From Sphingobacteriales bacterium (GTDB taxonomy: Bacteria; Bacteroidota; Bacteroidia; Chitinophagales; Chitinophagaceae): a stretch of 39,457 nucleotides of DNA. The number at the start of each line of letters is the position of its first letter. Within the stretch, counting starts at the first letter, position 1. Location of the stretch: positions 1 to 39,457 of the forward strand of contig JAHEZE010000015.1 in NCBI GenBank assembly GCA_023251235.1, in the 5' to 3' direction. The position numbers and the translations under genes were made by a program. Below the pieces are notes generated by a model, which was given only the letters and a program-made list of their open reading frames with translations, did not search any database and was not told where the DNA came from. Positions 23,059 through 39,457 of the stretch are shown one piece after another.

Positions 23059-23958
23059 ATGTCATTTGAATGGAAAGGGGTTTTCCCTGCATTGCTTACA
23101 CCCTTTAACGAAAAGGATGAACTGGACCTGGATATGTTTGAAAAAAATCTGGCTGCCCAGGTAGAAGCCAATGTTCATGGAATTATAATCGGAGGTTCTT
23201 TAGGAGAAGCCAGTACGATTACTGATAAAGAAAAAGAAGAACTGGTTGAATTTTCTGTTGAGTACCTCAATGAAAAAATCCCTGTGATATTAAACATTGC
23301 CGAAAGCACAACAAAGGCTGCAATAGAACAGGCTGCCAACGCAAAACGTTGGGGTGCTGATGGCATCATGCTGTTGCCACCCATGCGGTATAAAACGGAT
23401 GACAGGGAGACTATAGAATATTTTAAAGCCGTGGCAGCTTCTTCTGAATTGCCCATCATGATTTATAATAATCCGCCGGATTATAAAATTGATACCAGGC
23501 CGGATATGTTTGAAGAGTTGGTTGCATGTAAAAACATTACTGCATTGAAAGAAAGTTCAAGAGATGTAACCAACCTGACAAGAATGAAGAACCGGTTTGG
23601 CGACCGGTTTAAAATTTTATGTGGTGTAGATACATTGGCCATGGAAGAACTTTGCTTAGGCGCAGATGGATGGGTGGCCGGATTGGTAGATGCTTTTCCA
23701 AAAGAAACTGTTGCTATTTATGAATTAGTAAAAGCTGGAAAGATTGAGGAGGCCACAAAGATTTACCGCTGGTTTATGCCATTGCTTGAATTGGACATTC
23801 ATTCCAAACTGGTACAGTATATCAAACTTGCGGCCCAACAAACTGGTATCGGAAGCGAATATGTAAGGGCACCGAGATTAACTTTGATTGGTGAAGAAAG
23901 AGAAAGAGTTTTAAAGATCATTAATGATGGAATTTCTTCAAGACCAAATATTCAATAA
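23059..23958 (+). CDS. DapA-family lyase, probable 1-pyrroline-4-hydroxy-2-carboxylate deaminase
   Basis: A 299-residue member of the dihydrodipicolinate synthase/N-acetylneuraminate lyase superfamily. The Schiff-base lysine is K164 in ALKESSRD, and the helper tyrosine Y136 in IMIYNNPPDY. The GGSLGEASTIT motif is near residue 45-55. The superfamily covers many substrates, so the specific call comes from context: the next gene encodes a 2-oxoglutarate-semialdehyde-type dehydrogenase, and a hydroxyproline epimerase lies 4.5 kb downstream. In the known pathway this deaminase converts 1-pyrroline-4-hydroxy-2-carboxylate to 2-oxoglutarate semialdehyde. A dehydratase for a sugar acid such as 2-keto-3-deoxy-L-arabinonate, which also yields 2-oxoglutarate semialdehyde, is the main alternative given the arabinosidases nearby. 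The next gene starts 17 bases on. Confidence 0.82.
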   Translation: MSFEWKGVFPALLTPFNEKDELDLDMFEKNLAAQVEANVHGIIIGGSLGEASTITDKEKEELVEFSVEYLNEKIPVILNIAESTTKAAIEQAANAKRWGADGIMLLPPMRYKTDDRETIEYFKAVAASSELPIMIYNNPPDYKIDTRPDMFEELVACKNITALKESSRDVTNLTRMKNRFGDRFKILCGVDTLAMEELCLGADGWVAGLVDAFPKETVAIYELVKAGKIEEATKIYRWFMPLLELDIHSKLVQYIKLAAQQTGIGSEYVRAPRLTLIGEERERVLKIINDGISSRPNIQ

Positions 23959-23975
23959 TCAATATTCAATGCTCA

Positions 23976-25451
23976 ATGTTTAAGGATGCAACTTCTTCGG
24001 AAATTGAAAATTTGATGCAGCAGGCATGGACTGCATTTCATGTTTACAGGAAAACGAGTTTGAAACAGCGGGCCGATTTTATGCGAACCATTGCCGTTGA
24101 ACTTGATTCTTGTGGCGATGAGTTGATTCAAACAGCCATGCGGGAAACTAATTTACCTGAAGCAAGATTGAGAAATGAAAGGGGCAGAACAATTTTTCAA
24201 CTGAACCAATATGCAGATGCCTGCGAAAGTGGTGAGTGGCTGGAAGCAAGAATTGATACTGCGATCCCGGATAAAAATCCACCAAAGCCTGATATAAGAA
24301 AAATGCTGGTGCCGCTTGGCCCGGTTGTGGTTTTTGGTTCTTCTAATTTTCCGTTTGCGTATTCAACTGCAGGTGGCGATACCGCTTGTGCATTTGCTGC
24401 CGGTTGTCCTGTTATTATAAAAGCACATCCCGCACATCCGCAAACATCGCAAATGGTTGCCGATGCAATTTTAAAAGCATCGGGAAAATGCAATATGCCC
24501 AAAGGAATTTTTGCTCATGTTCATGGCGCAAGTTTTGAAGTGGGCAAAAACCTGGTGATGCATCCGCTTACAAAAGCAGTAGGCTTCACCGGATCATTTA
24601 TTGGGGGTAAACAATTATTCGATTGGGCCAATCAACGTAAAGAACCGATTCCTGTTTTTTCAGAAATGGGAAGTATCAATCCTGTTTTTCTTTTACCTGA
24701 GAAATTAAAATCTTCTTCTGCTGATATTGCTAAAATGTATGCCGGCTCTATCACGTTGGGTGTAGGGCAATTTTGTACAAACCCCGGATTGATCATCGGT
24801 ATTGAAAGTAATGAGTTGAAATCTTTTGTTCATGATCTGGGAAAAGCCATTCAGCAAATTTCCCCCGCACCTATGTTGCATTCCGGAATTGTAAAAGCCT
24901 ACAAAGAGAAAAAAGGAAATGCTTTGTTGCAAGACGAAGTTCATCTCGTGGCCGAATCCGAAACAGAGGTAAAAGAAAATGAAGGCCTGCCAACTATAGC
25001 CACTGCAAGTGGACAATCTTTTATTAAAAACCGGGTTCTGCATCAGGAAGTGTTTGGGCCTTATTCATTGGTAATTCGCTGTAAAGACATGAATGAAATG
25101 ATTGAAGTGGCAAAGCATACAGAAGGACAACTAACTGCTACCTTAATGGCCTCAGAAAATGATATAAAGTATAATGATGAATTAATTGAAGCAGTAAAAA
25201 ATATTTGTGGTCGGTTTATACTAAATGGAGTTCCCACTGGCGTTGAAGTTTGTCTGAGTATGCATCATGGCGGGCCATTTCCTGCAACTACCGATTCAAG
25301 ATTCACCAGTGTCGGTGCGGACGGAATAAAAAGATTTGCACGGCCACTTTGTTTTCAGAACTGGCCGAATGAATTATTACCAGATGAATTGAAAGATGAA
25401 AATCCATTGAGAATCTGGAGGACAATAAATAATGAACTGAAAAAATATTAA
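23976..25451 (+). CDS. Aldehyde dehydrogenase, probable 2-oxoglutarate-semialdehyde (2,5-dioxovalerate) dehydrogenase
   Basis: A 491-residue NAD(P)-dependent aldehyde dehydrogenase. The catalytic residues are present: N124 (SSNFPF), E230 (FSEMGS) and nucleophile C267 (GVGQFCTNPG). The segment LGPVVVFGSSNFPFAYSTAG and the ending MHHGGPFPATTDSRFTSVG are characteristic of the 2,5-dioxovalerate dehydrogenase branch. It would oxidise 2-oxoglutarate semialdehyde to 2-oxoglutarate for the TCA cycle, the last step both of hydroxyproline and of oxidative L-arabinose breakdown. It follows the DapA-family gene by 17 bases, with short ATTCAAT-like repeats between, and precedes the Asp-box protein by 11 bases, so the three form an operon. 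Confidence 0.88.
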   Translation: MFKDATSSEIENLMQQAWTAFHVYRKTSLKQRADFMRTIAVELDSCGDELIQTAMRETNLPEARLRNERGRTIFQLNQYADACESGEWLEARIDTAIPDKNPPKPDIRKMLVPLGPVVVFGSSNFPFAYSTAGGDTACAFAAGCPVIIKAHPAHPQTSQMVADAILKASGKCNMPKGIFAHVHGASFEVGKNLVMHPLTKAVGFTGSFIGGKQLFDWANQRKEPIPVFSEMGSINPVFLLPEKLKSSSADIAKMYAGSITLGVGQFCTNPGLIIGIESNELKSFVHDLGKAIQQISPAPMLHSGIVKAYKEKKGNALLQDEVHLVAESETEVKENEGLPTIATASGQSFIKNRVLHQEVFGPYSLVIRCKDMNEMIEVAKHTEGQLTATLMASENDIKYNDELIEAVKNICGRFILNGVPTGVEVCLSMHHGGPFPATTDSRFTSVGADGIKRFARPLCFQNWPNELLPDELKDENPLRIWRTINNELKKY

Positions 25452-25462
25452 AAGAATTTCAA

Positions 25463-27772
25463 ATGAAAAAGCTTGCCTTACTATTGCTGCCGCTTTCTTT
25501 ATTTGCTCAGCAAAATATTCCCACTACCGGTACACAGAAGATGGCAGCATTTGCAAAACAAAAACAAATGCTGCAGCAATCACCATATAAGGATTTACAA
25601 TGGCGATTAGTAGGTCCGGACAACCGAAGCGGTCGCAGTACTGATGTAGCGGGTATCACCGGAAACCCGAATATTATTTATGCGGCATTTGCTACCGGCG
25701 GCTTATGGAAAACTGAAGATGCCGGCAATACCTGGAAATCGATTTTTGATAAAGAAGCCACACAGTCAATTGGAAATATCGCATTAGCTCCATCCAATCC
25801 TAATATTTTATATGTGGGCACAGGTGAAGCAAATATTTTCCGTGCATCACTGCCGGGTATTGGAATGTATAAATCAACAGATGCCGGAAAAACTTTTAAA
25901 CATATAGGTTTGGAAAACACCGGGACCATTGCAAGAGTGGTTGTTTATCCTAAAAATCCAAACATTGTTTATGTAGCTGCCAGTGGCAATGAATGGACCT
26001 ATAACAAAGACCGTGGAGTTTATAAAACAACTGATGGTGGTAAAACATGGGAAAATATATTATTTGAAAATGATAAAAGCGGATGTATTGATTTGGTAAT
26101 GGATCCCTCTGACCCAAATACTCTATATGCTTCATTTTGGAATCGTATCAGGAAAAGATGGAGTGATCCTATACCTGAAGATGGAGATTATATTTATAAA
26201 ACAATAGATGGAGGAAAGAGCTGGAACAAAATTGTAAATGGTTTGCCTGATACAAAACTCACGGGAAGAATTGGTCTGGCAATTTCTCATTCTAATCCAA
26301 ATGTTCTCTACGCATTTGTGGATGATCACAATAAAAAAAGAGATCCGAAGCCTGGTGAAACCGATAGTTACGAAAGAAAAGTACAGAAAGTTGTAATTGG
26401 CGGAGCTATCTACCGAAGCAATGATAAAGGAGAAACCTGGCAGAAGCAGGCAGAGATACATGATTTTTTTACACCACTCTCCGGAACCTATGGTTGGGTA
26501 TTCAGCCAAATAAGAGTTGATCCCAAAGATGAAAATGAAGTGTATGCTTTTGGTGTAGCAAAAGGAGTGAGCCGGGATGGTGGCAAAACATGGAAAATTT
26601 GGGAACCAGCCGATACAACCGGTGATTGGACACATGGAGACAATCACGCCATGTGGATAGATGAAGAAAATCCGGATCGTATGATTGTTGGTAATGATGG
26701 AGGACTTACCTTAACTTATAACGGTGGAGTAAAATGGAAAAATTTTTTTAATAAGATACCGACCACGCAATTCTATACAATTACCTATGACATGCAAACA
26801 CCGTTCAATGTTTTTGGTCCGGTACAGGATGAAGGCACAATGAGTGGAAACATTACAAATACTTTTGGAAAAACTTCAGATACAACGCTTCGTCCGTGGC
26901 GTATGGCTCCCGGTGGCGAAGGCACACAGATCCAGGTTGACCCCAAAAATTCAAATATTGTTTATTCATCCAGTTACTACGGTCGCCTGATGAAAACAGA
27001 TATGAGTAAAAGCCGTCGTGAAGGTGTGAAAAGATTTACTGAGTTCGATGTAGGTCGTATAGATTCACTTCGTGGTGAGTGGTTGGCCGGAACTCTAATG
27101 AGTAAGTTTGACAACAAAACAATTTATCATGGCCTGCAGCATTTGTATAAAACAACTGATGCGGGTGAAACCTGGAAAATGATAAGCCCTGATCTTTCTT
27201 ATAATACCGAATCAGCAAAAGGTGTTTATCCCTATCTTATCTATCACCAGGCTATTACTGCCATTGCAGAAGGAGATATACCGGGTTTTTTAGTAGCGGG
27301 TACTGATGATGGCCGGGTGTGGTTAACAATAAATGATGGAGGCAATTGGCAGGAGATAACCAACAACTTGCCGAAGAACAAACATGTGGCAAAACTTTTT
27401 ACATCTGCGACAAAGCATCCGCCAAATTTATATCTTGCATTGAATGATAGAAGACAGGATAATCAAACAACTTATTTATACAAACTCAGTGGCGATGGTA
27501 ATACATGGCAACTGATCTCATCCAATCTTCCGCCTTCACCTGCCAATGTAATTATTGAAGACCCTGATGTTAAAAATGTGCTTTATTGCGGTACAGATAT
27601 GGGTGTTTATATAAGTAAAGATGGCGGCAACACATGGTTGGCAATGAATGGTAATCTGCCGGCATCGGTTTCAGTGAATGATATGTTTATTCATCCAAGA
27701 GATAAAAAATTAGTGATCGGAACGTATGGAAGAGGAGTGTATGTGATTGATGATTTATCAAAATTGAGATAG
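25463..27772 (+). CDS. Secreted Asp-box (BNR/VPS10-like) beta-propeller protein
   Basis: A 769-residue protein with a signal peptide (MKKLALLLLPLSLFAQQ). It holds at least eight Asp-box motifs of the S-x-D-x-G-x-T-W type, such as DAGNTW, DAGKTF, DGGKTW, DGGKSW, DKGETW, DAGETW and DGGNTW, spread along the chain; these make the turns of sortilin/sialidase-like propellers. The catalytic role is unknown: relatives include GH74-type enzymes and VPS10-like binding proteins, and many are only annotated as glycosyl hydrolases. Many relatives I recall continue some 200-300 residues past the GTYGRGVYVIDDL motif, whereas this one stops five residues after it (SKLR), four bases before a REP palindrome. 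It may therefore be a shortened form. It lies inside the hydroxyproline operon, so a role in binding or cutting plant glycoprotein is possible. Confidence 0.85.
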   Translation: MKKLALLLLPLSLFAQQNIPTTGTQKMAAFAKQKQMLQQSPYKDLQWRLVGPDNRSGRSTDVAGITGNPNIIYAAFATGGLWKTEDAGNTWKSIFDKEATQSIGNIALAPSNPNILYVGTGEANIFRASLPGIGMYKSTDAGKTFKHIGLENTGTIARVVVYPKNPNIVYVAASGNEWTYNKDRGVYKTTDGGKTWENILFENDKSGCIDLVMDPSDPNTLYASFWNRIRKRWSDPIPEDGDYIYKTIDGGKSWNKIVNGLPDTKLTGRIGLAISHSNPNVLYAFVDDHNKKRDPKPGETDSYERKVQKVVIGGAIYRSNDKGETWQKQAEIHDFFTPLSGTYGWVFSQIRVDPKDENEVYAFGVAKGVSRDGGKTWKIWEPADTTGDWTHGDNHAMWIDEENPDRMIVGNDGGLTLTYNGGVKWKNFFNKIPTTQFYTITYDMQTPFNVFGPVQDEGTMSGNITNTFGKTSDTTLRPWRMAPGGEGTQIQVDPKNSNIVYSSSYYGRLMKTDMSKSRREGVKRFTEFDVGRIDSLRGEWLAGTLMSKFDNKTIYHGLQHLYKTTDAGETWKMISPDLSYNTESAKGVYPYLIYHQAITAIAEGDIPGFLVAGTDDGRVWLTINDGGNWQEITNNLPKNKHVAKLFTSATKHPPNLYLALNDRRQDNQTTYLYKLSGDGNTWQLISSNLPPSPANVIIEDPDVKNVLYCGTDMGVYISKDGGNTWLAMNGNLPASVSVNDMFIHPRDKKLVIGTYGRGVYVIDDLSKLR

Positions 27773-27776
27773 TTTC

Positions 27777-27811
27777 AAACTTTGCCAAAGTTTTAGACTT
27801 TGGCAAAGTTT
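27777..27811. repeat. REP palindrome upstream of the RAYT gene
   Basis: Perfect 15-base arms (AAACTTTGCCAAAGT and its complement) are separated by the 5-base loop TTTAG. Each arm is itself a near-palindrome around AACTTTG-C-CAAAGTT. It starts four bases after the stop of the Asp-box gene and ends 18 bases before the RAYT start. It may also act as a transcription end or an mRNA-stabilising hairpin. Confidence 0.85.
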
Positions 27812-27829
27812 AATTTTAGAAAGTTAACT

Positions 27830-28423
27830 ATGGCTCCGGGTCAGTTTTATCATGTTTTTAATCATGCCAATGGCAGAGAGAACTTATTTGTCGAAGAAAA
27901 AAACTACAGTTTCTTTTTGCAAAAACTTTCGAAACATATTTTACCGGCTTGCAGGATTTATGCTTATTGCCTGATGAAAAATCATTTTCATTTACTGGTA
28001 CAGGCTCGTACTGAAGCTGAATTAAATCAGCTTTGGAGTAAGGAGGAAGAAAAGGAGTTGCCAGTGGGAAAACTTATTTTAAAAACAAGTAAGGTTTACG
28101 CAAACTTATTCAGTAGCTATACACAGGCATTCAATAAAGTGTATAATCGCATGGGCAGTCTTTTTATTCCGAGTATGAAAACTGAAGAGGTAGAAGGAGA
28201 TGCTTCTTTTTGCAAGGTTGTTCATTATATTCATGCCAACCCTGTTCATCACAGATTTGTTGATAAAATTGATAAATGGAAGCATAGTTCATATAAAATA
28301 TTTTTGAGCAATGGACAAACAAATATCGAAAGAGATTATGTTTTAAAAATCTTCGGAGGAATCGATATGTTTTTGAAATATCATGAACAACCAATTGATC
28401 TGAAATATAAATGGATTGAATAG
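27830..28423 (+). mobile_element. REP-associated tyrosine transposase (RAYT, Y1/HUH family)
   Basis: A 197-residue single-strand DNA transposase of the IS200/TnpA-REP family. FYHVFNHANGRENLF at residues 6-20 is the family opening. The HUH motif is NHFHLLV with H52 and H54, and YIHANPV contains the probable catalytic tyrosine Y133. The frame is open from a TTG at 27800 inside the REP, but the ATG at 27830 gives the usual N-terminus. REP palindromes stand on both sides (27777-27811, and 28425-28453 plus 28497-28535), the arrangement of a REP-RAYT unit. In known systems RAYTs bind and cut REPs and are usually single-copy, domesticated genes. It sits between two hydroxyproline-pathway genes and looks like an insertion. 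All key residues are present, so it could be active. Confidence 0.9.
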
Positions 28424-28424
28424 T

Positions 28425-28453
28425 CTTTAACGAAGTTCTAAACTTTGCCAAAG
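28425..28453. repeat. Degenerate REP palindrome downstream of the RAYT gene
   Basis: CTTTAACGAAGTT (28425-28437) and AACTTTGCCAAAG (28441-28453) pair at 10 of 13 positions around a 3-base loop. The right arm is identical to the arms of the other two REPs; the left arm has three changes. It begins one base after the RAYT stop codon and ends 10 bases before the epimerase ATG. Confidence 0.65.
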
Positions 28454-28463
28454 CTCAAATCAT

Positions 28464-29534
28464 ATGAGTACAAGAAAAGATAAATCAATTTCTAAGTCCA
28501 ACTTTGCCAAAGCCCAAAACTTTGGCAAAGTTGGAATTCCCGTTTTTCATTGTATAGATGCACATACCTGCGGTAATCCGGTTCGTCTTATTGCAGCAGG
28601 TGGTCCCGAACTGGAAGGAAATAACATGAGTGAAAAACGGCAGCATTTTTTAAAAGAATATGACTGGATAAGAAAAGGATTGATGTTTGAGCCACGGGGT
28701 CATGATATGATGAGTGGAAGTATTCTTTATCCGCCGCATGACCCGCAAAATGATTTTGCAGTTTTGTTTATTGAAACAAGTGGATGTCTTCCTATGTGTG
28801 GTCACGGAACTATTGGAACAATTACAATTGCAGTTGAAGAAGGATTGATTGTTCCAAAAGTTCCTGGCATTATACGAATGGAAGCCCCGGCCGGGCTTGT
28901 TCAAATTACTTATAAACAAGAAGGAACTAAAGTAAAATCAGTAAAGCTCACCAATGTGCCTGCATTTCTTGATAAAGAAGGAATCACTGCTGAATGTCCT
29001 GACCTGGGTGAATTGGTTATTGATGTGGCTTATGGCGGAAATTTTTATGCAATAGTGGATGTACAAAAAAATTTCAAAGGGCTGGAACATTACCCGGCTG
29101 ATAAACTAATTTCATGGGCAAGGGAGTTAAGAAAAAATATAAATGCAAAATATGAGTTTGTTCATCCTGATGATGAAACGATCAATGGATGCAGTCATAT
29201 TCTTTGGACAGGTGCAGTATTAGATAAACTATCTACTGCAAGAAATGCCGTGTTCTATGGAGATAAAGCAATTGATCGCAGTCCATGTGGTACGGGAACA
29301 TCAGCAAGAATGGCGCAGTGGTATTCAAAAGGGAAATTGAAGAAAGGAGATGTGTTTATTCATGAGAGCATAATCGGCAGTAAATTCAATGGCACAATTG
29401 AAGAGGAATTAACAATAGATGGAAAACCAGCCATCCGTCCGGGTATTGAAGGCTGGGCAAAGATTTATGGATATAACACAATAAGCATTGATAAGGATGA
29501 CGATCCTTATGCGTATGGATTTCAGGTGGTGTAG
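28464..29534 (+). CDS. 4-hydroxyproline 2-epimerase (proline racemase superfamily)
   Basis: A cofactor-free epimerase that converts trans-4-hydroxy-L-proline to cis-4-hydroxy-D-proline. Both catalytic cysteines are present: C112 in MCGHGTIGT and C275 in DRSPCGTGTS. A dehydratase of this superfamily would have Ser or Thr at the first site. The 356 residues slightly exceed the usual 310-340. Homology starts only at FHCIDAHTCGNPVR (residue 28), so about 24 residues form an N-terminal extension. Codons 12-24 of that extension are exactly a REP palindrome. The ATG at 28464 is the only ATG available before the conserved domain. It lies 40 bases after the RAYT gene. It completes three steps of hydroxyproline catabolism with the genes at 23.1-25.5 kb; the D-hydroxyproline dehydrogenase step is missing from the window. 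Confidence 0.92.
   Translation: MSTRKDKSISKSNFAKAQNFGKVGIPVFHCIDAHTCGNPVRLIAAGGPELEGNNMSEKRQHFLKEYDWIRKGLMFEPRGHDMMSGSILYPPHDPQNDFAVLFIETSGCLPMCGHGTIGTITIAVEEGLIVPKVPGIIRMEAPAGLVQITYKQEGTKVKSVKLTNVPAFLDKEGITAECPDLGELVIDVAYGGNFYAIVDVQKNFKGLEHYPADKLISWARELRKNINAKYEFVHPDDETINGCSHILWTGAVLDKLSTARNAVFYGDKAIDRSPCGTGTSARMAQWYSKGKLKKGDVFIHESIIGSKFNGTIEEELTIDGKPAIRPGIEGWAKIYGYNTISIDKDDDPYAYGFQVV
28497..28535. repeat. REP palindrome inside the epimerase coding sequence
   Basis: Perfect 16-base arms (TCCAACTTTGCCAAAG and its complement) are separated by the 7-base loop CCCAAAA, a total of 39 bases. It starts at the first base of codon 12 and ends at the last base of codon 24, so it adds exactly 13 codons (SNFAKAQNFGKVG) without shifting the frame. 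Confidence 0.9.
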
Positions 29535-29730
29535 CCCCATCCCGACCTCCCCCTTTAGGGGAGGCCATCTGTGCTCAAGGCCAGCTTATTTGAAAAAATG
29601 TTTAAAAAAGATAAGATGATTGATTAAAGAAGATTAAAGATATAATACTGAAGTGGAAGAACTAAAAGTTGATTAATGATTTGAAGTGCCGCTTCTTTTC
29701 CTTAAGGAGGGGGAGATGGTGGGTGAGGTA
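29535..29730. repeat. Intergenic segment flanked by inverted pyrimidine-rich palindromic repeats
   Basis: Just after the epimerase stop, CCTCCCC (29546-29552) and GGGGAGG (29558-29564) form a hairpin within a C-rich stretch starting GCCCCATCCCGACC. At 29698-29729 the minus strand reads a related sequence (CCTCACCCACCATCTCCCCC, then CCTTAAGG). Thus two C-rich palindromic elements face each other across about 130 bases with no reading frame. Similar C-rich repeats are widespread between genes in Bacteroidota. A related short C-rich segment is seen near 870-890 beside leader copy A. Transcription termination or a decayed miniature element are both possible. Confidence 0.5.
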
Positions 29731-29734
29731 AGAA

Positions 29735-29822
29735 GCTGAATAGAATTACAGAACGTACAAGAGAGTGACACAACAAATGCTGAATAGAATTACAAAAGCT
29801 TGTAACAAAAAAAATATATTTC
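29735..29822 (+). promoter_or_regulatory. Conserved leader/promoter-like element upstream of GH51 (copy B)
   Basis: GCTGAATAGAATTACA occurs at 29735-29750 and again at 29779-29794, a 44-base period. Between the copies lies GAACGTACAAGAGAGTGACA. Positions 29735-29792 match the element before hppD at 48 of 58 bases, in the same orientation toward the gene. The GH51 ATG follows 30 bases later, after an A-rich tract. It probably carries the promoter of the six-gene arabinosidase operon, but no TAnnTTTG box is visible in it. Confidence 0.6.
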
Positions 29823-31346
29823 ATGAAAAAAATTGCAACAATCATCATTTTACTATTTTCTTTTACTTTAATTCATGCTCAAAACCTGAAAGCCAGAATT
29901 AAAATTGATATTGAACGAAAGATCGGTGCCATTGATACGCTGATCTATGGAAATTTTACCGAACATCTTGGCCGGTGTATCTATGGTGGTATCTATGATC
30001 CCAAATCTTCGCAGGCGAATGAAGATGGTTTTAGAAAAGATGTAATTGATGCTGCCAATAATCTTGGCGTCAGTATTATCCGTTATCCCGGCGGCAATTT
30101 TGCTTCGGGTTATCATTGGGAAGATGGTATCGGGCAAAAAGCTAATCGCCCCAAACGTAAAGATCTTGCATGGGGTGCTATTGAAACAAATGAAGTGGGC
30201 ACCGATGAGTTCATGAAATTTATTTCTAAATCAAAAGCGCAGCCATATATATGCGTAAATCTGGGAACAGGTACAATAGAAGAAGCAAGAAACTGGGTGG
30301 AGTATTGCAATGCGCCGGCGGGTTTGTATTATTCTGATCTCCGTGTAAAGAATGGGCATCCTGCACCATACAATATTAAATACTGGGGTTTGGGAAATGA
30401 AATGGATGGCCCCTGGCAGATGGGACATAAGAATGCAGAAGATTACAGCAAGTTTGCATTGGAGGCAGCCAAACTAATGAAGTGGAGTGATGATAAAATT
30501 AAATTAATTGCATCGGGCAGCAGTAACTATGGCGCTGACTGGATCAGCTGGAACCGGACAATATTAACCGAGTTAAGAAATCAGATTGACTATATTTCAT
30601 TGCATCATTATGTGGGTAATTCTGATTCAAGTCACAAAAAATTTATGACTGCCACTTTGTTTACGGATAAAGTTATCAAAATAACAGAAGGACTTATTAA
30701 TGAAGTAAGGTCCCGCTATAAAACAGACCGGCCAATCTATATTGCCTTTGATGAGTATAATGTGTGGTACCGGTCTTGGGTAGAAAAGCAATTGGAAGAA
30801 CATTACAATTTGCAGGATGCACTGGTGATTGCTGAGTTTCTGAATTGTTTTATCCGAAATGCACAAATAGTGAAGATGGCGAATATGGCACAACTGGTGA
30901 ATGTGATAGCGCCGATGATGGTTACCAATGACAAACTCTGGACACAGACAATTTATTTTCCCCTTCAATTGTTTGGTAAAAATTGTTTTGGTGAATCTGT
31001 ATCTGCATTTGTTGATGGGGATACTTATGATGTGGGAGATCAAAAAGGAATTCCTTACCTCGATGTGTCAACTGCTTATAATGGCTCAAAAGATGAATTA
31101 ATAATAAATGTTGTGAACCGGAGCGAAGACAAAACGGTGGAGACAAATATCCAGAACCAATTTGGAATGCTGGCGGATAAAGCGAATGTGGCAGAAGTGA
31201 ATTCAAAAAGCATTTATGATGAGAACAATGAAAAAGAACAGAAAGTAAAAACAGTCAGTAAACAAATAACTTTGAAAGGAAATGAATTCACCTATTCTTT
31301 CCAGCCTCATTCATTTACCCAGATCATTATTAAAATAAAAAAATAG
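29823..31346 (+). CDS. GH51 alpha-L-arabinofuranosidase, secreted
   Basis: A 507-residue retaining glycosidase that removes terminal alpha-L-arabinofuranose from arabinan, arabinoxylan or glycoproteins. A signal peptide (residues 1-20, ending LIHAQ) sends it to the periplasm. The TIM barrel contains the acid/base E193 in YWGLGNEMDG and the nucleophile E311 in AFDEYNVWYR, with FTEHLGRCIYGGIYD near residue 45-59 and IIRYPGGNFASGYHW near 85-99, all GH51 hallmarks. A C-terminal beta-sandwich ends the chain. The length is normal. It is the first gene of an operon whose next gene starts three bases after its stop. In extensin Hyp-arabinosides the fourth arabinose is alpha-linked, so this enzyme could open that chain. 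Confidence 0.94.
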   Translation: MKKIATIIILLFSFTLIHAQNLKARIKIDIERKIGAIDTLIYGNFTEHLGRCIYGGIYDPKSSQANEDGFRKDVIDAANNLGVSIIRYPGGNFASGYHWEDGIGQKANRPKRKDLAWGAIETNEVGTDEFMKFISKSKAQPYICVNLGTGTIEEARNWVEYCNAPAGLYYSDLRVKNGHPAPYNIKYWGLGNEMDGPWQMGHKNAEDYSKFALEAAKLMKWSDDKIKLIASGSSNYGADWISWNRTILTELRNQIDYISLHHYVGNSDSSHKKFMTATLFTDKVIKITEGLINEVRSRYKTDRPIYIAFDEYNVWYRSWVEKQLEEHYNLQDALVIAEFLNCFIRNAQIVKMANMAQLVNVIAPMMVTNDKLWTQTIYFPLQLFGKNCFGESVSAFVDGDTYDVGDQKGIPYLDVSTAYNGSKDELIINVVNRSEDKTVETNIQNQFGMLADKANVAEVNSKSIYDENNEKEQKVKTVSKQITLKGNEFTYSFQPHSFTQIIIKIKK

Positions 31347-31349
31347 AAA

Positions 31350-33332
31350 ATGAAACGCATAAAATTATTTGTAATTTATTTTTTCTTTTCGGCTAAAATA
31401 TTTTCACAAAATACCCTGCAGAAAATTGAGCCGGTTAGTTTTTCGCAGGTAAATGTTACGGATAAATTCTGGCGGCCTAAGATTGATAAGGTGGCTACAA
31501 AAACTTTGTCGGCCTGCATTTATCAAACTGAAATTGCTACGCCACGCATTCGCAATTTTGAAAAAGTAGCCAGGAAAAAAGGCGAGCCGCATGAAGGAAT
31601 TTTTTATGATGACAGTGATGTGTTCAAAGCACTGGAAGCAATGGCTTATTCTTTAAAAACTCATCCAAGTGCTGAAATGGAAAAAAAATGCGATGAGTGG
31701 ATTGATAAAATTGCAGCAGCGCAGCAACCCGATGGATACCTCAACACATGGTACACTTTAAAAGGCTTACAGGATCGCTACACCGATATGAGTATGCACG
31801 AAGATTATAATGCAGGTCACATGATTGAAGCGGCGGTTGCTTATTTCAATGCCACAGGCAAAAGAAAATTTTTAGATGTCTGCATTAAATGGGCTGATCA
31901 GTTTGATAATTTATTTGGCCCGGGTAAAAGAGATTGGGTGACCGGTCATGAAGAACTTGAACTTGCATTGGTGAAATTGTATAAAGCAACTAAGAATGAA
32001 AAGTATCTTAAACTTTCTGATTGGCTATTGAGTGAACGGGGTAAAAAATTAGCTAAGGGTTACACCTGGACAGAATGGAAAGACACGGCTTATGCACAGG
32101 ATGTATTACCCGTGAAAGAACAAAAAGAAATTACCGGACATGCTGTACGGGCCATGTATTTGTACACCGGTGCTGCAGATGTTGCTGCACAAACTGGGGA
32201 TAATGGATACTTGAAAGCCATGAGAAATGTTTGGGAAGATGTGGTGTATCGGAACATGTACATCACCGGCGGCATTGGTTCGGCAGGAAGTAATGAAGGA
32301 TTTACACAGGATTATGATTTGCCGAATGAACAGGCTTATTGCGAAACCTGCGCCAGTGTAGGAATGGTATTCTGGAATCAGCGGATGAATTCGCTTACAG
32401 GAAATTCAGAATACATAGATGTACTGGAAAGAAGTTTATATAATGGAGCACTGGATGGATTGAGCCTGAGTGGTGATCGATTTTTTTATGGCAACCCTCT
32501 TGCATCTCGTGGCCAGAATCAAAGAAGAGAATGGTTTGGTACGGCTTGTTGCCCTGCTAACATTGCAAGGCTGGTGGCTTCTTTAGGAGATTATATTTAT
32601 GCAAAAACGGATAATAGCATTTATATGAATTTATTTGTAGGCAGTAATACAACTATTCCTCTTGCAAATGGAAATGTAGATGTAAAGATGGAAACAAATT
32701 ATCCGTGGGAGGGGAATATTAAAATAAATATTGATCCGGTTAAAAAATCTCCAAAGGAGTCCTTGTGGACAAAATTCAAATTGTATCTCCGTATACCCGG
32801 TTGGGTTCAGGGACAAACTTCCACAAATGACTTGTATGATTTTTCTGATTTTAAAGCCACGGTAGTCTCATTGAAAGTAAATGGAAAAGATCAGGCAGTA
32901 AAAATGGAAAACGGTTACCTGATAATTGACCGGGAATGGAAGAAAGGGGATGTAGTGGATTATAATTTACCTATGCAGGCAAATAAGATTTTTGCCAGAT
33001 CAGAATTGAAACAGGATAATAACCGCATCGCTATTCAACGTGGCCCGATTGTCTATTGCGTGGAAGGATCAGACAATAATAACAAAGCATGGAATATTAT
33101 TATTCCTGATAACACTAAATTTGAAACTATAGATTATAAAGTGCTTGATGAACCCGTAAAAGCAATAACAGCTGAAGTTCCTGTGGTGACAGTGAGTGAA
33201 GACGGAACCTCTTTAAAAACTGAAAAGAAAAAAATAATTGCTATACCATATTATACATGGGCCAATCGCGGTAAGAATGAAATGCAGGTTTGGCTGCCCA
33301 CTAAGATTACTGATATAAAATTGAATTACTAA
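31350..33332 (+). CDS. GH127 beta-L-arabinofuranosidase, secreted
   Basis: A 660-residue DUF1680 enzyme with a signal peptide ending near KIFSQ. The catalytic and zinc-site residues of the family can be placed against Bifidobacterium longum HypBA1: acid/base E316 (SNEGFT), E332 and C334 (CETC at 331-334), nucleophile C400 and neighbour C401 (TACCPANIARL). The 16-residue spacing from E316 to E332 equals that between Glu322 and Glu338 of HypBA1. HypBA1 cleaves beta-1,2-linked arabinofuranose from hydroxyproline-linked oligosaccharides of extensin, which fits the hydroxyproline genes upstream. It lies three bases after GH51 and two before the DinB-like gene. Confidence 0.93.
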   Translation: MKRIKLFVIYFFFSAKIFSQNTLQKIEPVSFSQVNVTDKFWRPKIDKVATKTLSACIYQTEIATPRIRNFEKVARKKGEPHEGIFYDDSDVFKALEAMAYSLKTHPSAEMEKKCDEWIDKIAAAQQPDGYLNTWYTLKGLQDRYTDMSMHEDYNAGHMIEAAVAYFNATGKRKFLDVCIKWADQFDNLFGPGKRDWVTGHEELELALVKLYKATKNEKYLKLSDWLLSERGKKLAKGYTWTEWKDTAYAQDVLPVKEQKEITGHAVRAMYLYTGAADVAAQTGDNGYLKAMRNVWEDVVYRNMYITGGIGSAGSNEGFTQDYDLPNEQAYCETCASVGMVFWNQRMNSLTGNSEYIDVLERSLYNGALDGLSLSGDRFFYGNPLASRGQNQRREWFGTACCPANIARLVASLGDYIYAKTDNSIYMNLFVGSNTTIPLANGNVDVKMETNYPWEGNIKINIDPVKKSPKESLWTKFKLYLRIPGWVQGQTSTNDLYDFSDFKATVVSLKVNGKDQAVKMENGYLIIDREWKKGDVVDYNLPMQANKIFARSELKQDNNRIAIQRGPIVYCVEGSDNNNKAWNIIIPDNTKFETIDYKVLDEPVKAITAEVPVVTVSEDGTSLKTEKKKIIAIPYYTWANRGKNEMQVWLPTKITDIKLNY

Positions 33333-33334
33333 AA

Positions 33335-33808
33335 ATGGAAATGAAGCAATATCTTATTGAAACTTTCCGCTTTAATGACCATGCCAATAAAATGGTGCTC
33401 GCAAAAATTAAAGAATTACCTGACCAAAAAGAATGTATTCGTTTTTTCAGCCATCTCATCAACTCACAGATAAAATGGCTGAAAAGGATTCAGGTTTTTC
33501 CAAATGATCCCGGGCTTGATTGGTGGGAGCCGGTTTATCCGCTGGAAGAATTGGAAAACTGCTGGAACAAAAGCCTTGAAGCATGGATCAGTTTTCTTAG
33601 CAGCCTTTCTGAAGAACATTTATTTAAAGAAAAAAAATTTACCGGCTTCGATGGAGGTCATTGGTCGGCTGTTCTGAAAGATATTGCACTGCAATTAAAT
33701 TATCATTCTATTCATCACCGGGCACAAATGCAAACCATCATACGGCAGCAGGGTTTGCAACCTGATTTTATAGATTATATCAGAACAAAGTATAAAAAAC
33801 TGAATTGA
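33335..33808 (+). CDS. DinB-like four-helix-bundle protein
   Basis: A 157-residue cytosolic protein of the DinB/YfiT superfamily. Candidate metal-binding histidines stand at the usual places: NDHAN near residue 14-18, FSHLINSQIKW near 39-49, and NYHSIHHRAQM near 121-131. The superfamily includes thiol transferases and many unassigned proteins; the sequence does not show the reaction. It sits two bases after the GH127 gene and 11 bases before the mutarotase, so it is transcribed with secreted glycosidases although it has no signal peptide. Its role there is unknown. It may simply be a passenger of the operon. Confidence 0.82.
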   Translation: MEMKQYLIETFRFNDHANKMVLAKIKELPDQKECIRFFSHLINSQIKWLKRIQVFPNDPGLDWWEPVYPLEELENCWNKSLEAWISFLSSLSEEHLFKEKKFTGFDGGHWSAVLKDIALQLNYHSIHHRAQMQTIIRQQGLQPDFIDYIRTKYKKLN

Positions 33809-33819
33809 CTATTTAAATA

Positions 33820-34959
33820 ATGAATGTATACATGAATATCAAAATTGCGGTTGGTTCACTATTATTTATTTTTGGATGTAAGCTGATGCCCCGGAATGAA
33901 GGAAAAGAAATTACCAGTTCCAAACAAATGGCAGGGAAAATATTTTATAATATGATTGAAACAGACAGTGTTTTTCAGTACACACTTATTAATAAGAATG
34001 GAATGCTTGTAAAAATCCTGAACTATGGCGGAACAGTAACGGATATTATCACTCCTGATAAAAATGGAAAGATGGGAGATGTGATATTGGGATATGATTC
34101 GTTAAGCGGTTACATGCAAAAAGGTAATCCGTATTTTGGTTGTCTTGTTGGCCGCTATGCCAACCGCATTGCCAATGCAAAATTTACACTCGATGGAAAA
34201 GAATATACGTTGGCTGCAAATAATGGCCCCAACTCATTGCACGGCGGTTGGAAAGGATTTGATAAAATAATCTGGTCAGTAAAATCATTCAATGATTCCA
34301 GTCTTGCACTTTCTTATTTAAGTAAAGACGGAGAAGAAGGGTATCCTGGTAATTTATCTGTAGAGGTAATGTATTCTCTCAACGTTGATAATTCATTGAA
34401 AATTGAATATAATGCTACCACTGATAAGCCAACTCCTGTTAACCTGACTAATCATTGTTATTTTAATTTATCTGCCGGAACGGATTCCACAATTCTCGAT
34501 CATGAACTAATGCTGAAAGCTGATAAATACACACCCGTTAATGAAACCCTGATTCCAACCGGAAAAACTGCTGATGTAAAAGGAACACCCATGGATTTTA
34601 CAGTTGCAAAAAAGATCGGGAAAGAAATTGCACAGGTCAATGGAGGATATGATCACAATTGGGTCTTAAACAAAACGGGCAACGATCTTGAAATGATTGC
34701 ATCCGTTTATCATGCAGCGAGTGGTCGTTATATGGAAGTACTAACTACACAACCAGGTATTCAATTCTATACCGGAAATTTTTTAGATGGCACATTAAAA
34801 AATACAAGGGGAGGTTTACAATATGTACAACATGCCGGACTTTGTTTAGAAACCCAGCATTTCCCGGATTCACCTAATCAACCAGCATTTCCAAATACAA
34901 TTCTGAAGCCGGGAGAATCATATCATCATGTAACAGTTTATAAATTTTCAATTAAGTAA
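33820..34959 (+). CDS. Aldose 1-epimerase (GalM-like) lipoprotein
   Basis: Interconverts alpha and beta anomers of aldoses. The 379-residue protein has an N-terminal hydrophobic segment ending LFIFGC, a likely lipobox, so it would be anchored in the cell envelope. GalM motifs are present: [13 protein letters not shown] near residue 68-80, [12 protein letters not shown] near 110-121, [15 protein letters not shown] near 134-148, and [10 protein letters not shown] near 208-217 with the catalytic His; the catalytic Glu lies in [15 protein letters not shown] near residue 345. A second ATG at 33832 would also give a good signal peptide. In this operon it probably speeds anomer exchange of released L-arabinose. 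Its stop shares one base with the next start (TAATG). Confidence 0.92.
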
Positions 34960-37358
34960 TGAAAAGAATCTTCTTATTCCTGATTGCTGATTTCTTATTC
35001 CTTATTTCTTTTCCACAGGCAGATAAAGCTCCTGCTTATCCTCTTATTACTAATGATCCGTATTTCAGTATCTGGAGTTTTACTGATAAACTGAATGAAA
35101 GCACAACAAAACACTGGACGGGAACAGATCATTCATTAATGGGGATATTAAATGTTGATGGTAAACTTTATAAATTTCTGGGTGATTCTCCAAGGGAATT
35201 GAAATCTATATTGGCCGATGCAGACTTTGCTTCATATAATTGCCAGTTCACTGAAGCTAAACCTGCCGGAAATTGGACAAATGTGGAATATGATGATGCG
35301 AAATGGCAAACAGGAAAAGGAATGTTTGGCACACAGAATGTGGAGCCACAAACGATCTGGACAAGCAGAGAAATTTGGATAAGAAGAACATTTGAAATTT
35401 CGTCAATGAATTTTCACCAACTCCTGTTGAAGACCAAATATGATGACAATGTTGAGATCTATCTTAATGGAGAAAAAATATACACTGCCGGATGTTGTTC
35501 TGCCAATAAAGAAATTTTATTGACGAAATCAGTAGAACAGAAATTGCATAAGGGAAAAAATGTGCTGGCTATGTATTGTGAAAACACCGGTGGCCAGGCC
35601 TACATTGATGCCGGGTTGTATGATAGATTACCACCTCAGCCAATTCAGCAGGCCATTCAAAAGAAAGTTGAGATTACTGCGACGCAGACAAAATATGAGT
35701 TTGACTGTGGCCCTGTTTTTATTGCGGTAGATTTTCTTTCTCCTTTACTGATAAATGATCTTGATTTGTTTTCAAGGCCTGTTAGCTATGTAACTTTTAA
35801 TGTTCTGTCAAATGATGGCAAACCACATGATGTGAAATTATATTTTAATGTTGCTAATGAACTGGTGAGAAATAATAAAAAGTCGGAAGTAAAAACAGGA
35901 ATTGGAAAGTATGAGAACATATCCTACTTCAAAATAGGCACGACAGGGCAACCGGTATTGAAAAGAAAAGGAGATGATGTGAGAATTGATTGGGGATACC
36001 TGTACTTGGCCGTTACCAATGAGGCAGGAGTAAAGCAGAATACCAGTTCAAAAATTCCCGGAATTAATTTACCGGGGATGATAAGCACTGAAATCAGTTT
36101 CGGAAAGGTGAAATCGGTTCCAATTGAAAAAACAGTACTTCTTGCTTACGATGATTTATATTCTATTCAATATTTCAACCAGGATTTACACGCATGGTGG
36201 AAGAAGAATTTTTCTACCACAGAAGAAATGATAAAAAAATCTTTGAATGATTTCGGACCGATAGCGGAACGTTGCGGGAAGTTTGATAAAGAATTATACA
36301 ACGATGCTTTAAATGCGGGCGGAGAAACCTATGCAAAACTTTGTGTACTGGCTTATCGCCAATCTCTTGCTGCGCATAAATTAGTAAGAGGACCCAACAA
36401 TGAAATTCTTTTTCCTCAAAAAGAAAATTTCAGTAATGGTTCTATCTGGACGGTGGATGTAACTTATCCTTCGGCGCCACTGACTTTAATTTATAATCCG
36501 GAATTACTGAAAGGAATGGTGGAACCATTGATGTACTACAGTGAAAGTGGAAAATGGACAAAGCCATTTCCTGCTCACGACTTAGGAACTTATCCAATTG
36601 CCAATGGACAAACATATCCGGAAGATATGCCGGTGGAAGAGGCAGGCAATATGATTATCCTTACGGCGGCTATTTGCAAAGCACAGGGCAAGAATGATTT
36701 TGCAAATAAACATTGGAATACATTAAGTCAATGGGTGGAGTTTTTAGTGAAAGATGGATTTGACCCCGCCAACCAATTATGTACAGATGATTTTGCCGGT
36801 CATCTTGCACGGAATGCTAATTTATCTATGAAGGCGATTATGGGCATTGCTGCCTACGCTCAGATGGCGAAGGGCCTTGGTAAAAGAGGTGAGGCTGGTA
36901 AATATTATAACATTGCGGAAGATTATGCTGCCCGATGGATGCAGATGGCGGATGATGGGGATCATTACTCTCTTACTTTTGATAAGAAAGGAACCTGGAG
37001 TCAGAAGTATAATCTTGTTTGGGATAAATTGCTTGGATTAAATCTTTTTCCACAATCGGTTTATGATAAAGAAATTAAATACTATCTCACCAAACAAAAC
37101 CAATTTGGATTACCCTTAGATAGCCGGAAGACTTATACAAAATCTGATTGGATACTATGGACAGCTACTCTTGCCAATAATCAAAATGATTTTGAAGCAC
37201 TGATTAAACCGGTTTATAAGTTTGCGACAGAAACACCGACCAGAGTTCCTTTGAGTGACTGGCATGAAACAACTGACGGTAAACAGGTGGGTTTCCAGGC
37301 AAGAAGTGTGGTGGGAGGATATTTTATTAAAATGCTTGAAAATAAATGGAAGAAATAA
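34959..37358 (+). CDS. DUF4964/DUF5127/DUF4965 glutaminase-A-like secreted protein
   Basis: A 799-residue secreted protein (signal peptide near residues 1-19). It starts with [23 protein letters not shown], the typical opening of the family also containing fungal glutaminase A. An inserted beta-sandwich of the galactose-binding kind covers about residues 95-225 ([19 protein letters not shown], then IWIRRTFEI). The helical C-terminal half carries [12 protein letters not shown] near 497, [19 protein letters not shown] near 554-572, and [19 protein letters not shown] near 608-626, and ends [24 protein letters not shown]. The fold of this half resembles alpha/alpha-barrel glycosidases, so a sugar substrate is as possible as glutamine. 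It stands between a mutarotase and a second arabinofuranosidase, which favours a role in plant glycan or glycoprotein breakdown. The activity is unproven. Confidence 0.85.
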
Positions 37359-37362
37359 CCCG

Positions 37363-39457
37363 ATGAAAAAAAATAGTTTCCTCTTAATATTCTTTTATAG
37401 CTCATTTGTTTCATCACAATCTTATGTGCCGGAAAAGAATTTCTCAAAAATGAAAGTGAAACCGGTAATCCCTGTGAGAGCTTATGCTTTTAATCTGAAG
37501 GATGTAAAACTTTTGAACAGTCCATTTAAACATGCGATGGAAATGGACAGTGCATATTTACTTTTATTAAAACCCAATCGCTTGCTTCACCGTTTTCATA
37601 AGTATGCCGGTTTGCCGGTGAAAGACTCAGTATATGCAGGCTGGGAGAGTGAAGGATTATCAGGACATACTTTGGGTCATTATTTATCGGCGGTTTCAAT
37701 GATGTATGTGACAACAGGTAATAAAGAATTAAAGAATCGTGTTAATTATATTGTTGATGAACTGGAGAAATGCCAGCAGGCAAGAAAGACAGGTTATGTG
37801 GGAGCTATTCCCAATGAAGATTCAATTTTTGGTAAAGTGGCAAGAGGGAAAATAAAATCTTCCGGTTTTGATCTGAACGGAGGATGGAGTCCCTGGTACA
37901 CGGTACATAAATTAATGGCAGGACTTTGTGATGCGTATTTGTATTGTGAAAATAAAAAAGCATTACAGATAGTTACCAATATGGCTGATTGGGTTTACCA
38001 TACTGTTTATCATCTGGATGATTCCACCAGATTAAAGATGCTGAACTGTGAATATGGCGGCATGAATGAAGTGCTGGCAAATATTTATGCGTTAACCGGC
38101 AATAAAAAATATCTTGATCTTTCTTATAAATTTTATGATGAATTTGTAATGGGACAACTGGCAAAAAAAATTGATCCACTTCCGGGAAAACACAGTAATA
38201 CCAATGTGCCAAAAGCCATTGGCAGTGCAAGGCAATATGAATTAACCGGGAATGAAAGAGATAAAACCATTGCCTCCTTTTTCTGGCAAACAATGACGCA
38301 TAATCATAGTTACGTAATCGGTGGTAACAGCAACTATGAATATTGTGGTGAGGCAGGAAAATTAAATGACCGGCTCAGTGACAATACCTGTGAAACCTGC
38401 AACACTTACAACATGCTCAAACTTACGAGGCATTTATTTGCGTGGAATCCGTCAGCGGAATTGATGGATTATTATGAAAGAGCTTTGTATAATCATATAC
38501 TTGCTTCACAAAATCCTGCTAATGGCATGATGACTTATTTTGTGCCGCTAAGGATGGGGACAAAAAAAGAATTCAGTGATTCGTTCAATACATTTACCTG
38601 TTGTGTAGGCAGTGGTATGGAAAATCATTCAAAGTATGTAGAACAGATTTATAGTTATGATGGAAAAGATATATTATTTGTAAATCTCTTCATTCCTTCA
38701 GTATTGAATTGGAAAGAAAAGAATGTCATTGTCACCCAACTGAATTTTGTGCCAGAGAGTAATCAGGTAAAACTCAGGATTGATTGTCCGTCGCCCACTA
38801 CTTTTTCTTTAAGAATCCGCAGACCTTTTTGGAGCAGAAATAATCCGGTCATTAATGTAAATGGTGAAGCAGTGAAAACAGAAACTGATGAACATGGATA
38901 TTTGGCAATGGCACGTAAATGGAAGAAAGGAGATGTTGTGGCAGTAGATTTTGAAATGAATCTTTACACCGAAGCAATGCCGGATAATCCTGATCGGATT
39001 GCCATCAAATATGGCCCGTTGGTGATGGCGGGGCAATTGGGAAAACAAATGCCCGATCCTGTTTATGGAACTCCTGTTTTACTTACCGATAATAAAAATG
39101 TGAATGACTGGATAAAACCAACTGCTCAGCCTTTGCAGTTTGAGATGAAAGGAGTGGGTAAACCTTTTGATGTTACACTGATTCCTTTTTACAAGACTTA
39201 TGATCAGTATTACAGTGTGTACTGGGATTTTTTTTCCAATGCAGATTGGAATGCAAGACAGACAGAGTATGAGGCAGAGAAAAAAAGAGCAAAAGAAATT
39301 GAAGAAAAGACAATTGATTATTTCCGTATTGGCGAAATGCAGCCTGAAAGAGATCATAACCTGAAAGCCAGTGAAAGAAGTTATGTAAGTGATGCCATTG
39401 GAAGAATGGGAAGAGAAGCCAGAAGAGATAATTTTTTCTCTTTTGATATGAAAGTGG
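37363..39457 (+). CDS. Second DUF1680 (GH127/GH146-type) beta-L-arabinofuranosidase, C-terminus cut by window edge
   Basis: From the ATG at 37363 the frame is open for 698 codons to the right edge. A signal peptide (residues about 1-19, ending VSSQS) is present. Zinc-site residues are found as CETC at 343-346 and CC at 413-414 (FTCCVGSGMENHS); E326 or E330 is the likely acid/base. GHTLGHYLSAVSMMY near 101-115 and CEYGGMNEVLANIYALTG near 229-246 distinguish it from the GH127 enzyme at 31350 and resemble the DUF1680 branch classed as GH146. It begins four bases after the preceding stop. After the barrel, the visible tail (PERDHNLKASERSYVSDAIG) starts another domain. The operon may continue past the window. 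Confidence 0.9.
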   Translation, partial: MKKNSFLLIFFYSSFVSSQSYVPEKNFSKMKVKPVIPVRAYAFNLKDVKLLNSPFKHAMEMDSAYLLLLKPNRLLHRFHKYAGLPVKDSVYAGWESEGLSGHTLGHYLSAVSMMYVTTGNKELKNRVNYIVDELEKCQQARKTGYVGAIPNEDSIFGKVARGKIKSSGFDLNGGWSPWYTVHKLMAGLCDAYLYCENKKALQIVTNMADWVYHTVYHLDDSTRLKMLNCEYGGMNEVLANIYALTGNKKYLDLSYKFYDEFVMGQLAKKIDPLPGKHSNTNVPKAIGSARQYELTGNERDKTIASFFWQTMTHNHSYVIGGNSNYEYCGEAGKLNDRLSDNTCETCNTYNMLKLTRHLFAWNPSAELMDYYERALYNHILASQNPANGMMTYFVPLRMGTKKEFSDSFNTFTCCVGSGMENHSKYVEQIYSYDGKDILFVNLFIPSVLNWKEKNVIVTQLNFVPESNQVKLRIDCPSPTTFSLRIRRPFWSRNNPVINVNGEAVKTETDEHGYLAMARKWKKGDVVAVDFEMNLYTEAMPDNPDRIAIKYGPLVMAGQLGKQMPDPVYGTPVLLTDNKNVNDWIKPTAQPLQFEMKGVGKPFDVTLIPFYKTYDQYYSVYWDFFSNADWNARQTEYEAEKKRAKEIEEKTIDYFRIGEMQPERDHNLKASERSYVSDAIGRMGREARRDNFFSFDMKV

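Follow-up and report, generated by a model that had tools for sequence, protein, structure and literature searches.

Why should genes for stripping arabinose from plant glycoproteins be found among genes for the breakdown of hydroxyproline (Hyp)? This question is raised by a 39,457-nucleotide stretch of DNA from a Sphingobacteriales bacterium of the family Chitinophagaceae (C24:1-39457; the window hereafter), in which a run of predicted arabinosidases, members of glycoside hydrolase (GH) families, follows the genes of 4-hydroxyproline catabolism. The draft genome (G000) comprises 3.23 Mb in 181 contigs and is 95% complete; the contig itself extends to position 42806, with a run of 100 N beginning at the end of the window. 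We consider it probable that the locus unmasks and consumes 4-hydroxyproline of plant hydroxyproline-rich glycoproteins (HRGPs) of the extensin type. Gene content, gene order, catalytic motifs and recurrent linkage in relatives were observed and form the basis of this reading; from them we infer the substrate, the order of cleavage, export, uptake and all enzyme activities.

The Hyp half of the locus is complete by family. It begins with a DapA-family lyase (23059..23958, + strand; PF00701, 209 bits), a predicted pyrroline-4-hydroxy-2-carboxylate deaminase in which the Lys of LKESS and the Tyr of YNNPP are kept. The next gene encodes an aldehyde dehydrogenase (23976..25451, +; PF00171; nearest solved chains 3v4c and 1eyy), a predicted alpha-ketoglutarate semialdehyde dehydrogenase with its motif residues Cys at amino acid (aa) 267 and Glu at aa 230. 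The 4-hydroxyproline 2-epimerase (28464..29534, +; homologous part starting near 28542) reaches 578 bits against NF010578, the cut-off of which is 376. Both of its catalytic Cys are present (MCGHGT, PCGTGT), each invariant among 9 aligned proteins, and activity on trans-4-Hyp is predicted from the family score and these motifs. The fourth enzyme, a DadA-like FAD oxidoreductase of 414 aa (PF01266, 209 bits), lies past the 100-N gap at contig positions 39732-40976. A preliminary description of the window had listed a D-hydroxyproline dehydrogenase as missing, and this oxidoreductase is its candidate on the contig; the genes that it did name all stand where it had placed them, with coordinates and family scores confirmed. 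The four families of the canonical 4-Hyp cluster, namely 4-hydroxyproline epimerase (4HypE), D-amino acid oxidase (DAAO), dihydrodipicolinate synthase (DHDPS) and aldehyde dehydrogenase (ALDH), which constitute an established route (Zhao et al. 2014, PMC4113996; this source, PMC4454575, PMC7263609, PMC8012813, PMC8424115 and PMC10850190 are cited from excerpts throughout), are thus all represented on one contig. Because the oxidoreductase sits past the gap, the arabinosidase genes are enclosed by genes of the Hyp pathway. None of the four Hyp enzymes has a signal-like N-terminus, as judged by eye.

The enclosed run starts with a GH51 alpha-L-arabinofuranosidase-type protein (29823..31346, +; PF06964, 133 bits; 1pz3, 410 bits) and a GH127 beta-L-arabinofuranosidase-type protein (31350..33332, +; PF07944, 340 bits; best chains 6ex6 and 4qjy), and ends with a further DUF1680 enzyme (37363..39457, +; PF07944, 418 bits), the 3' end of which is lost to the assembly gap. 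The window glycosidases, GH51 and GH127 among them, bear signal-like N-termini (by eye). Catalytic, middle and C-terminal domains (PF07944, PF20736, PF20737) are all found in the GH127 protein, with the Zn/Cys motif kept in the alignment with 4qjy; the NCBIfam aceric acid hydrolase model gives it 432, under the cut-off of 950. Beta-L-arabinofuranosidase activity is predicted for it, with a specificity that family scores do not fix. The second DUF1680 enzyme, noticed already in the preliminary description, can be refined to GH146-like rather than a second GH127, since the closest solved chain is 5opj, which we take to be the GH146 enzyme BT0349 (483 bits, versus 208 for 8k7x, 82 for 6ex6 and 64 for 4qjy). 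The Glu/Cys/Cys-Cys zinc and nucleophile motif is intact in both DUF1680 proteins. All genes from the lyase to the GH146-like enzyme share the + strand, with intergenic spacing of 11-40 nt up to the epimerase, 288 nt between the epimerase and GH51, and -1 to 11 nt within the run from GH51 to GH146.

The preliminary description had named, beforehand, co-occurrence of the two gene sets in related genomes as its test, and such co-occurrence was found. Our sample consisted of 195 Chitinophagaceae genomes, 92 of which have the epimerase family (91 above the cut-off); PF07944 is represented by 348 genes in 111 genomes. The latter family occurs in 77 of the 92 epimerase genomes versus 34 of the 103 epimerase-free ones (Fisher p 4e-13). 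This genome-wide association may be partly a matter of genome size, and proximity is the stronger test. Within neighbourhoods of up to 20 kb around each epimerase (shorter near contig ends, slightly longer for three), 52 PF07944 genes were found in 38 of the 92 genomes, versus about 0.96 expected under random placement, as computed from PF07944 genome totals (1e-20) and rounded genome sizes. This is a more than 50-fold excess.

For gene order we used 95 loci, made up of those of the 92 sample genomes, G001, G003 and a second, sub-cut-off match in G129; their open reading frames (ORFs) were clustered by BLAST single linkage and each cluster was identified by Pfam from one representative (two for cluster 51). 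The DUF1680 cluster holds 56 ORFs in 40 loci, 49 of them on the strand of the epimerase. On re-scanning, 55 matched PF07944 at 1e-10 and the remaining one, in G030, turned out to come from a split gene, of which it is the C-terminal half, so that the corrected count is 55 genes in 40 loci, or, in the 92 genomes, 52 genes (53 ORFs) in 38; the member from G035 gets no further than 1e-19, short of 1e-20, and leaving it out gives 51 genes in 37 genomes. DapA-type genes are present in 76 loci, DadA-type in 75 and aldehyde dehydrogenase in 69. The oxidoreductase lies downstream on the same strand in 70 loci, adjacent to the epimerase in 37 and separated from it by inserts in 33. DUF1680 genes are found in 24 of these inserts, so that 24/95 loci have DUF1680 flanked by the epimerase and the oxidoreductase, all on the same strand, and the inserts also hold GalM-like (7), GH2-C-like (7), GtaA-type (6), melibiase-like (3) and GH51 (2) genes. 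Of the 24 loci with DUF1680 in this position, 23 have no N between epimerase and oxidoreductase, the genome studied here being the sole exception. GH127-like and GH146-like genes are both present in 15 of the 40 linked loci. On an epimerase tree (FastTree, 144 proteins) no fewer than 26 changes of the linkage label are required, versus 37 when labels are shuffled, and well-supported branches force at least 10 of them; 125 rows were labelled (45 positive), and 19 rows that had no DUF1680 and fell short of 5 kb on a side received no label. These label changes indicate that linkage was gained or lost many times.

How might the two halves work together? The glycan on extensin Hyp is Araf-alpha1,3-Araf-beta1,2-Araf-beta1,2-Araf-beta-Hyp, Araf being arabinofuranose (PMC7263609). 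An exported GH51 enzyme would remove the terminal alpha-Araf, GH127 would then remove the beta-1,2-linked units, and GH146 would release the last Araf-beta-Hyp residue. Free Hyp, or Hyp-containing peptides released by further enzymes, would enter the cytoplasm, where the epimerase would convert Hyp to cis-4-hydroxy-D-proline, to be oxidised by the DadA-like enzyme; deamination of the oxidised product by the DapA-like enzyme would give alpha-ketoglutarate semialdehyde, from which the aldehyde dehydrogenase would form 2-oxoglutarate. Sugar removal is placed outside and Hyp catabolism inside the cell in this proposal because the exo-enzymes have signal-like N-termini. Cleavage of Araf-beta-Hyp by the GH146-like enzyme is proposed by family likeness to XeHypBA1 and Bll4HypBA1; these two enzymes, classed as GH146, cleave that bond (PMC10850190), and the activity of XeHypBA1 on Ara-Hyp is reported also in PMC6085000, where it is assigned to GH127.

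Several observations weigh against this reading. Arabinan is a target of GH51-type enzymes as well. Within GH146, BT0349 acts on arabinotetraose derived from arabinan, which suggests an arabinan role, and Bll3HypBA1 shows almost no activity on Ara-Hyp (PMC10850190), so that membership in the family alone is not proof of Araf-beta-Hyp cleavage. The label of 2,5-dioxovalerate type, given to the dehydrogenase in the preliminary description, is weak beyond its aldehyde dehydrogenase part, as the NCBIfam model yields 93 bits with a cut-off of 750. The nearest NCBIfam model for the FAD oxidoreductase is the D-amino acid dehydrogenase PRK00711, at 248 bits below a cut-off of 383, and the junction to this gene spans the 100-N gap in this genome. 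A Pfam scan of 30 window ORFs (out of 34 of at least 120 aa; 3 of the 30 had no match) and of the two genes of the contig tail, the oxidoreductase and BshC, revealed no SusC/SusD, no known regulator and no peptidase family; the preliminary description had listed the same components as missing, and they do occur in a minority of related loci. No sugar or amino-acid importer was recognised on the contig either. Among relatives, 54 of the 92 epimerase genomes have no linked DUF1680, partly owing to short contigs, and outside the family, in an even sample of the phylum, such linkage is rare (5/55 loci, each confirmed by Pfam).

Although the run holds three predicted arabinosidases, L-arabinose isomerase AraA (PF02610) was not detected in the genome, an absence that at 95% completeness is not proof. 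The two PF07944 genes of the genome are both at this locus, GH51 is present, and there are three FGGY kinases of unassigned type. The known isomerase route may thus be closed to freed arabinose, and, without araA, Hyp may matter more than the sugar here. The claim of the preliminary description that one region handles both the sugar and the amino acid of a glycoprotein is largely supported by the linkage, with extensin itself deduced and the sugar half apparently incomplete in this strain. It is possible, and we propose it only tentatively, that the system is directed primarily at the amino acid: arabinosidases would unmask Hyp as a source of carbon and nitrogen, the sugar would be a by-product, lost or shared, and different Bacteroidota lineages would have built such loci repeatedly, by adding modules of glycosidases or proline peptidases to a conserved core of Hyp catabolism. 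That linked loci are generally marked by a lack of araA was considered and found unsupported; the gene is lacking in 8/38 linked versus 11/73 unlinked PF07944 genomes, and present in 30 of the 38.

Among other explanations, the one that survives best keeps the mechanism and changes the target, with CLAVATA3-type arabinosylated peptides, solanaceous lectins, arabinogalactan proteins or algal wall glycoproteins in place of extensin. CLV3 is among the proteins that carry Hyp-Araf3 (PMC8012813), Hyp arabinosides are found on solanaceous lectins (PMC7263609), and the enzymes of the locus do not discriminate among these substrates. We nevertheless regard this alternative as rather unlikely. GH51 suits the fourth, alpha-linked Araf, which is never added at non-contiguous Hyp sites and so points to extensin (PMC8012813). 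Moreover, alpha-galactosidase-type enzymes in some related loci fit extensin best: its Ser bears alpha-galactose (PMC8012813), and these genes are therefore counted in favour of an extensin-type substrate. Among them is cluster 51, in 3/95 loci (two of the three members were scanned, both of alpha-galactosidase type, PF16499). A melibiase-like cluster 40 is present in 4/95. GH27-type enzymes can also be beta-L-arabinopyranosidases, as in Chitinophaga pinensis (PMC8424115).

A second alternative would have the two pathways share an end product. Oxidative L-arabinose breakdown also ends in alpha-ketoglutarate semialdehyde, and a DapA-family dehydratase and alpha-ketoglutarate semialdehyde dehydrogenase operate in both pathways; the DapA-like enzyme and the aldehyde dehydrogenase could then serve arabinose as well as Hyp, with the branches meeting in one operon. 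The common enzyme families, the lack of a detected araA, and genes weakly resembling SMP30/arylesterase (10/95 loci) or GFO/MocA (6/95) would agree with it. This we find improbable, given that the only IlvD/EDD-type dehydratase of the genome is most simply a housekeeping enzyme, that no arabinose dehydrogenase was identified (none was searched for), and that the DapA and aldehyde dehydrogenase genes flank the epimerase also at loci without arabinosidase. Still more improbable is that two functions lie side by side, an arabinan or arabinose operon (GH51, GH146, GalM) having come by chance to a Hyp-catabolism site: the activity of BT0349 (PMC10850190), the 288 nt with repeats before GH51 and the tracking of araA by PF07944 over the family (araA in 92 of 111 PF07944 genomes) would favour it, but the excess of PF07944 near the epimerase, the repeated gain or loss of linkage on the tree, the intercalation of DUF1680 between two pathway genes, and the failure to find GH43 or endo-arabinanase by Pfam among the 30 scanned window ORFs, or araA in the genome, stand against it, and as a main explanation chance is rejected on the linkage statistics.

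The loci of relatives contain further components. An AraC-type regulator is present in 33/95, on the opposite strand in 29; SusC-type genes occur in 13/95, SusD-type in 6/95, an amino-acid permease in 11/95 and DUF885 in 15/95. Peptidases are of the Xaa-Pro aminopeptidase type in 6/95 loci and of the DPP-IV/S9 type in 4/95. In Ilyomonas limi 17mud1-8 one stretch holds DUF885, DadA, SusC, SusD, AraC, DapA, epimerase, DUF1680, GH51 and Xaa-Pro aminopeptidase genes; no aldehyde dehydrogenase was seen in it. In G166, a GH95 alpha-fucosidase-type gene (L074:10505-12880) comes directly after the epimerase and before two DUF1680 genes, and 26/95 loci have, close to the epimerase but on the other strand, a gene of the fatty-acid-hydroxylase family (L030:13874-15154).

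DUF1680 is present in 25 of 80 loci from named organisms, including 6 of the 7 labelled Sphingobacteriaceae; these loci overlap the 195-genome sample (for example L141/G092 and L133/G083), so the counts are not independent. Isolates with a linked locus include Flavihumibacter solisilvae 3-3, Ilyomonas limi 17mud1-8, Chitinophaga japonensis DSM 13484 and Mucilaginibacter gilvus F01003. No epimerase ORF was called by the simple ORF picker in 3 of the 80, nor in 5 of the 55 loci from outside the family, and these were kept in the denominators. Three of the five linked loci from outside belong to family f22: in L205 and L206 the DUF1680 gene adjoins a gene of the alpha-galactosidase type upstream of DapA, and in L214 two DUF1680 genes occur together with a Xaa-Pro aminopeptidase. 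In the other two, from f24, DUF1680 lies downstream, beside DPP-IV-type and DUF885 genes. The linked DUF1680 proteins of these two (L222:15893-18943, L235:1107-4148) bear laminin-G and bacterial Ig-like domains, a layout resembling that of the cell-surface Bll3HypBA1 of Bifidobacterium (PMC10850190). Three further loci from outside the family (L218, L233, L234) combine the epimerase with Xaa-Pro aminopeptidase and SusC/SusD, and two of them with a DPP-IV-type gene, without DUF1680; possibly these are a version for Hyp peptides, such as collagen or unglycosylated peptides.

The arabinosidase run of the window holds three more genes, all on the + strand: a DinB-superfamily protein (33335..33808; PF05163, 36 bits), a GalM-like aldose 1-epimerase with a lipoprotein-like N-terminus (33820..34959; PF01263, 332 bits; 9/95 loci) and a GtaA-type six-hairpin protein (DUF4964/DUF5127/GtaA; 34959..37358; PF16335, 479 bits; 6/95 loci). 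The last accompanies DUF1680 in epimerase loci and may be a new glycosidase or peptidase acting on Hyp glycopeptides; a sequence search gave no solved relative, and its structure model (mean pLDDT 54, from an alignment of 4 sequences) was too poor for use. Between aldehyde dehydrogenase and epimerase lies a secreted-looking beta-propeller protein with Sortilin-Vps10/BNR repeats (25463..27772, +; PF15902; signal-like N-terminus by eye), the gene of which occurs in 11/95 loci, frequently in that place. Sequence search retrieved beta-propeller-type chains only, and here too the model (mean pLDDT 62, 3 sequences) was too poor for use.

The neighbouring gene (27800..28423, +), of the REP-associated tyrosine transposase type (RAYT; NF047646, 56.6 bits, below the cut-off of 80; PF01797, 24.4 bits, cut-off 23), is probably a bystander. 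Around it, window positions 27779-28531 contain 8 matches to ACTTTGCCAAAG (at most 1 mismatch, both strands; 0.39 expected). One palindromic pair falls within the epimerase ORF, at its 5' end, so that the approximately 26 residues preceding the conserved part of that protein seem to derive in part from a REP-like element. A 34-base pattern for the palindromic repeat, with its spacer written by eye, found no match genome-wide, which carries little weight. A scan for bacteroidete promoters gave one strict match, within a coding region, and was not used as evidence. BshC (C24:41074-42684) is directly downstream of the oxidoreductase, and since it lies near the epimerase in 28/95 loci, the locus often occupies one conserved chromosomal site.

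With the Bacteroides arabinan polysaccharide utilisation locus (PUL) of BT0349, this locus has GH146 in common. That PUL also holds GH51 and GalM, as here, and we know of no Hyp genes in it. It differs in its SusC/SusD, not found on the window's contig, and in this strain the locus is not a classical PUL. The HypAA-HypBA2-HypBA1 cluster of Bifidobacterium longum likewise combines alpha- and beta-arabinofuranosidases, GH127 included, for Hyp-linked arabinose, but it relies on GH43 and GH121, imports beta-arabinobiose through an ABC system and takes the sugar, and the excerpt describes no Hyp catabolism (PMC7263609). In the 30 window ORFs, Pfam gave no match to GH121, GH43 or an ABC sugar importer; a dedicated GH121 model was not used. 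XeHypBA1 of the Xanthomonas euvesicatoria cluster xehypBA1-BA2-AA also frees arabinose from Ara-Hyp (PMC6085000; PMC10850190); a broken putative prolyl oligopeptidase gene lies alongside, and the text of PMC6085000 mentions neither epimerase nor Hyp catabolism. Conversely, the main text of the neighbourhood study of 4-Hyp clusters mentions no glycosidase, arabinose or DUF1680 (PMC4113996), and a paper on Latescibacteria proposes HRGP use via GH127, without Hyp genes (PMC4454575, excerpt). In open-licence PMC, with subscription papers and preprints outside the scope, we found no paper joining hydroxyproline epimerase with an arabinofuranosidase, and no title or abstract start combining Hyp catabolism with arabinosidases; two papers name both a hydroxyproline epimerase and glycoside hydrolases. 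The locus is a new combination of two known systems, with novelty that is provisional; the preliminary description had likewise known of no such combined PUL.

Among the structural proteins of plant walls are the extensins and their Hyp-rich glycoprotein relatives, and where bacterial systems for their Hyp arabinosides have been described, it is the sugar that is taken. If the proposed function is true, Bacteroidota would be able to draw on wall glycoproteins for both carbon and nitrogen. The linkage would then provide a genomic marker for this trait and a likely function for many DUF1680 genes, with named isolates as test cases.

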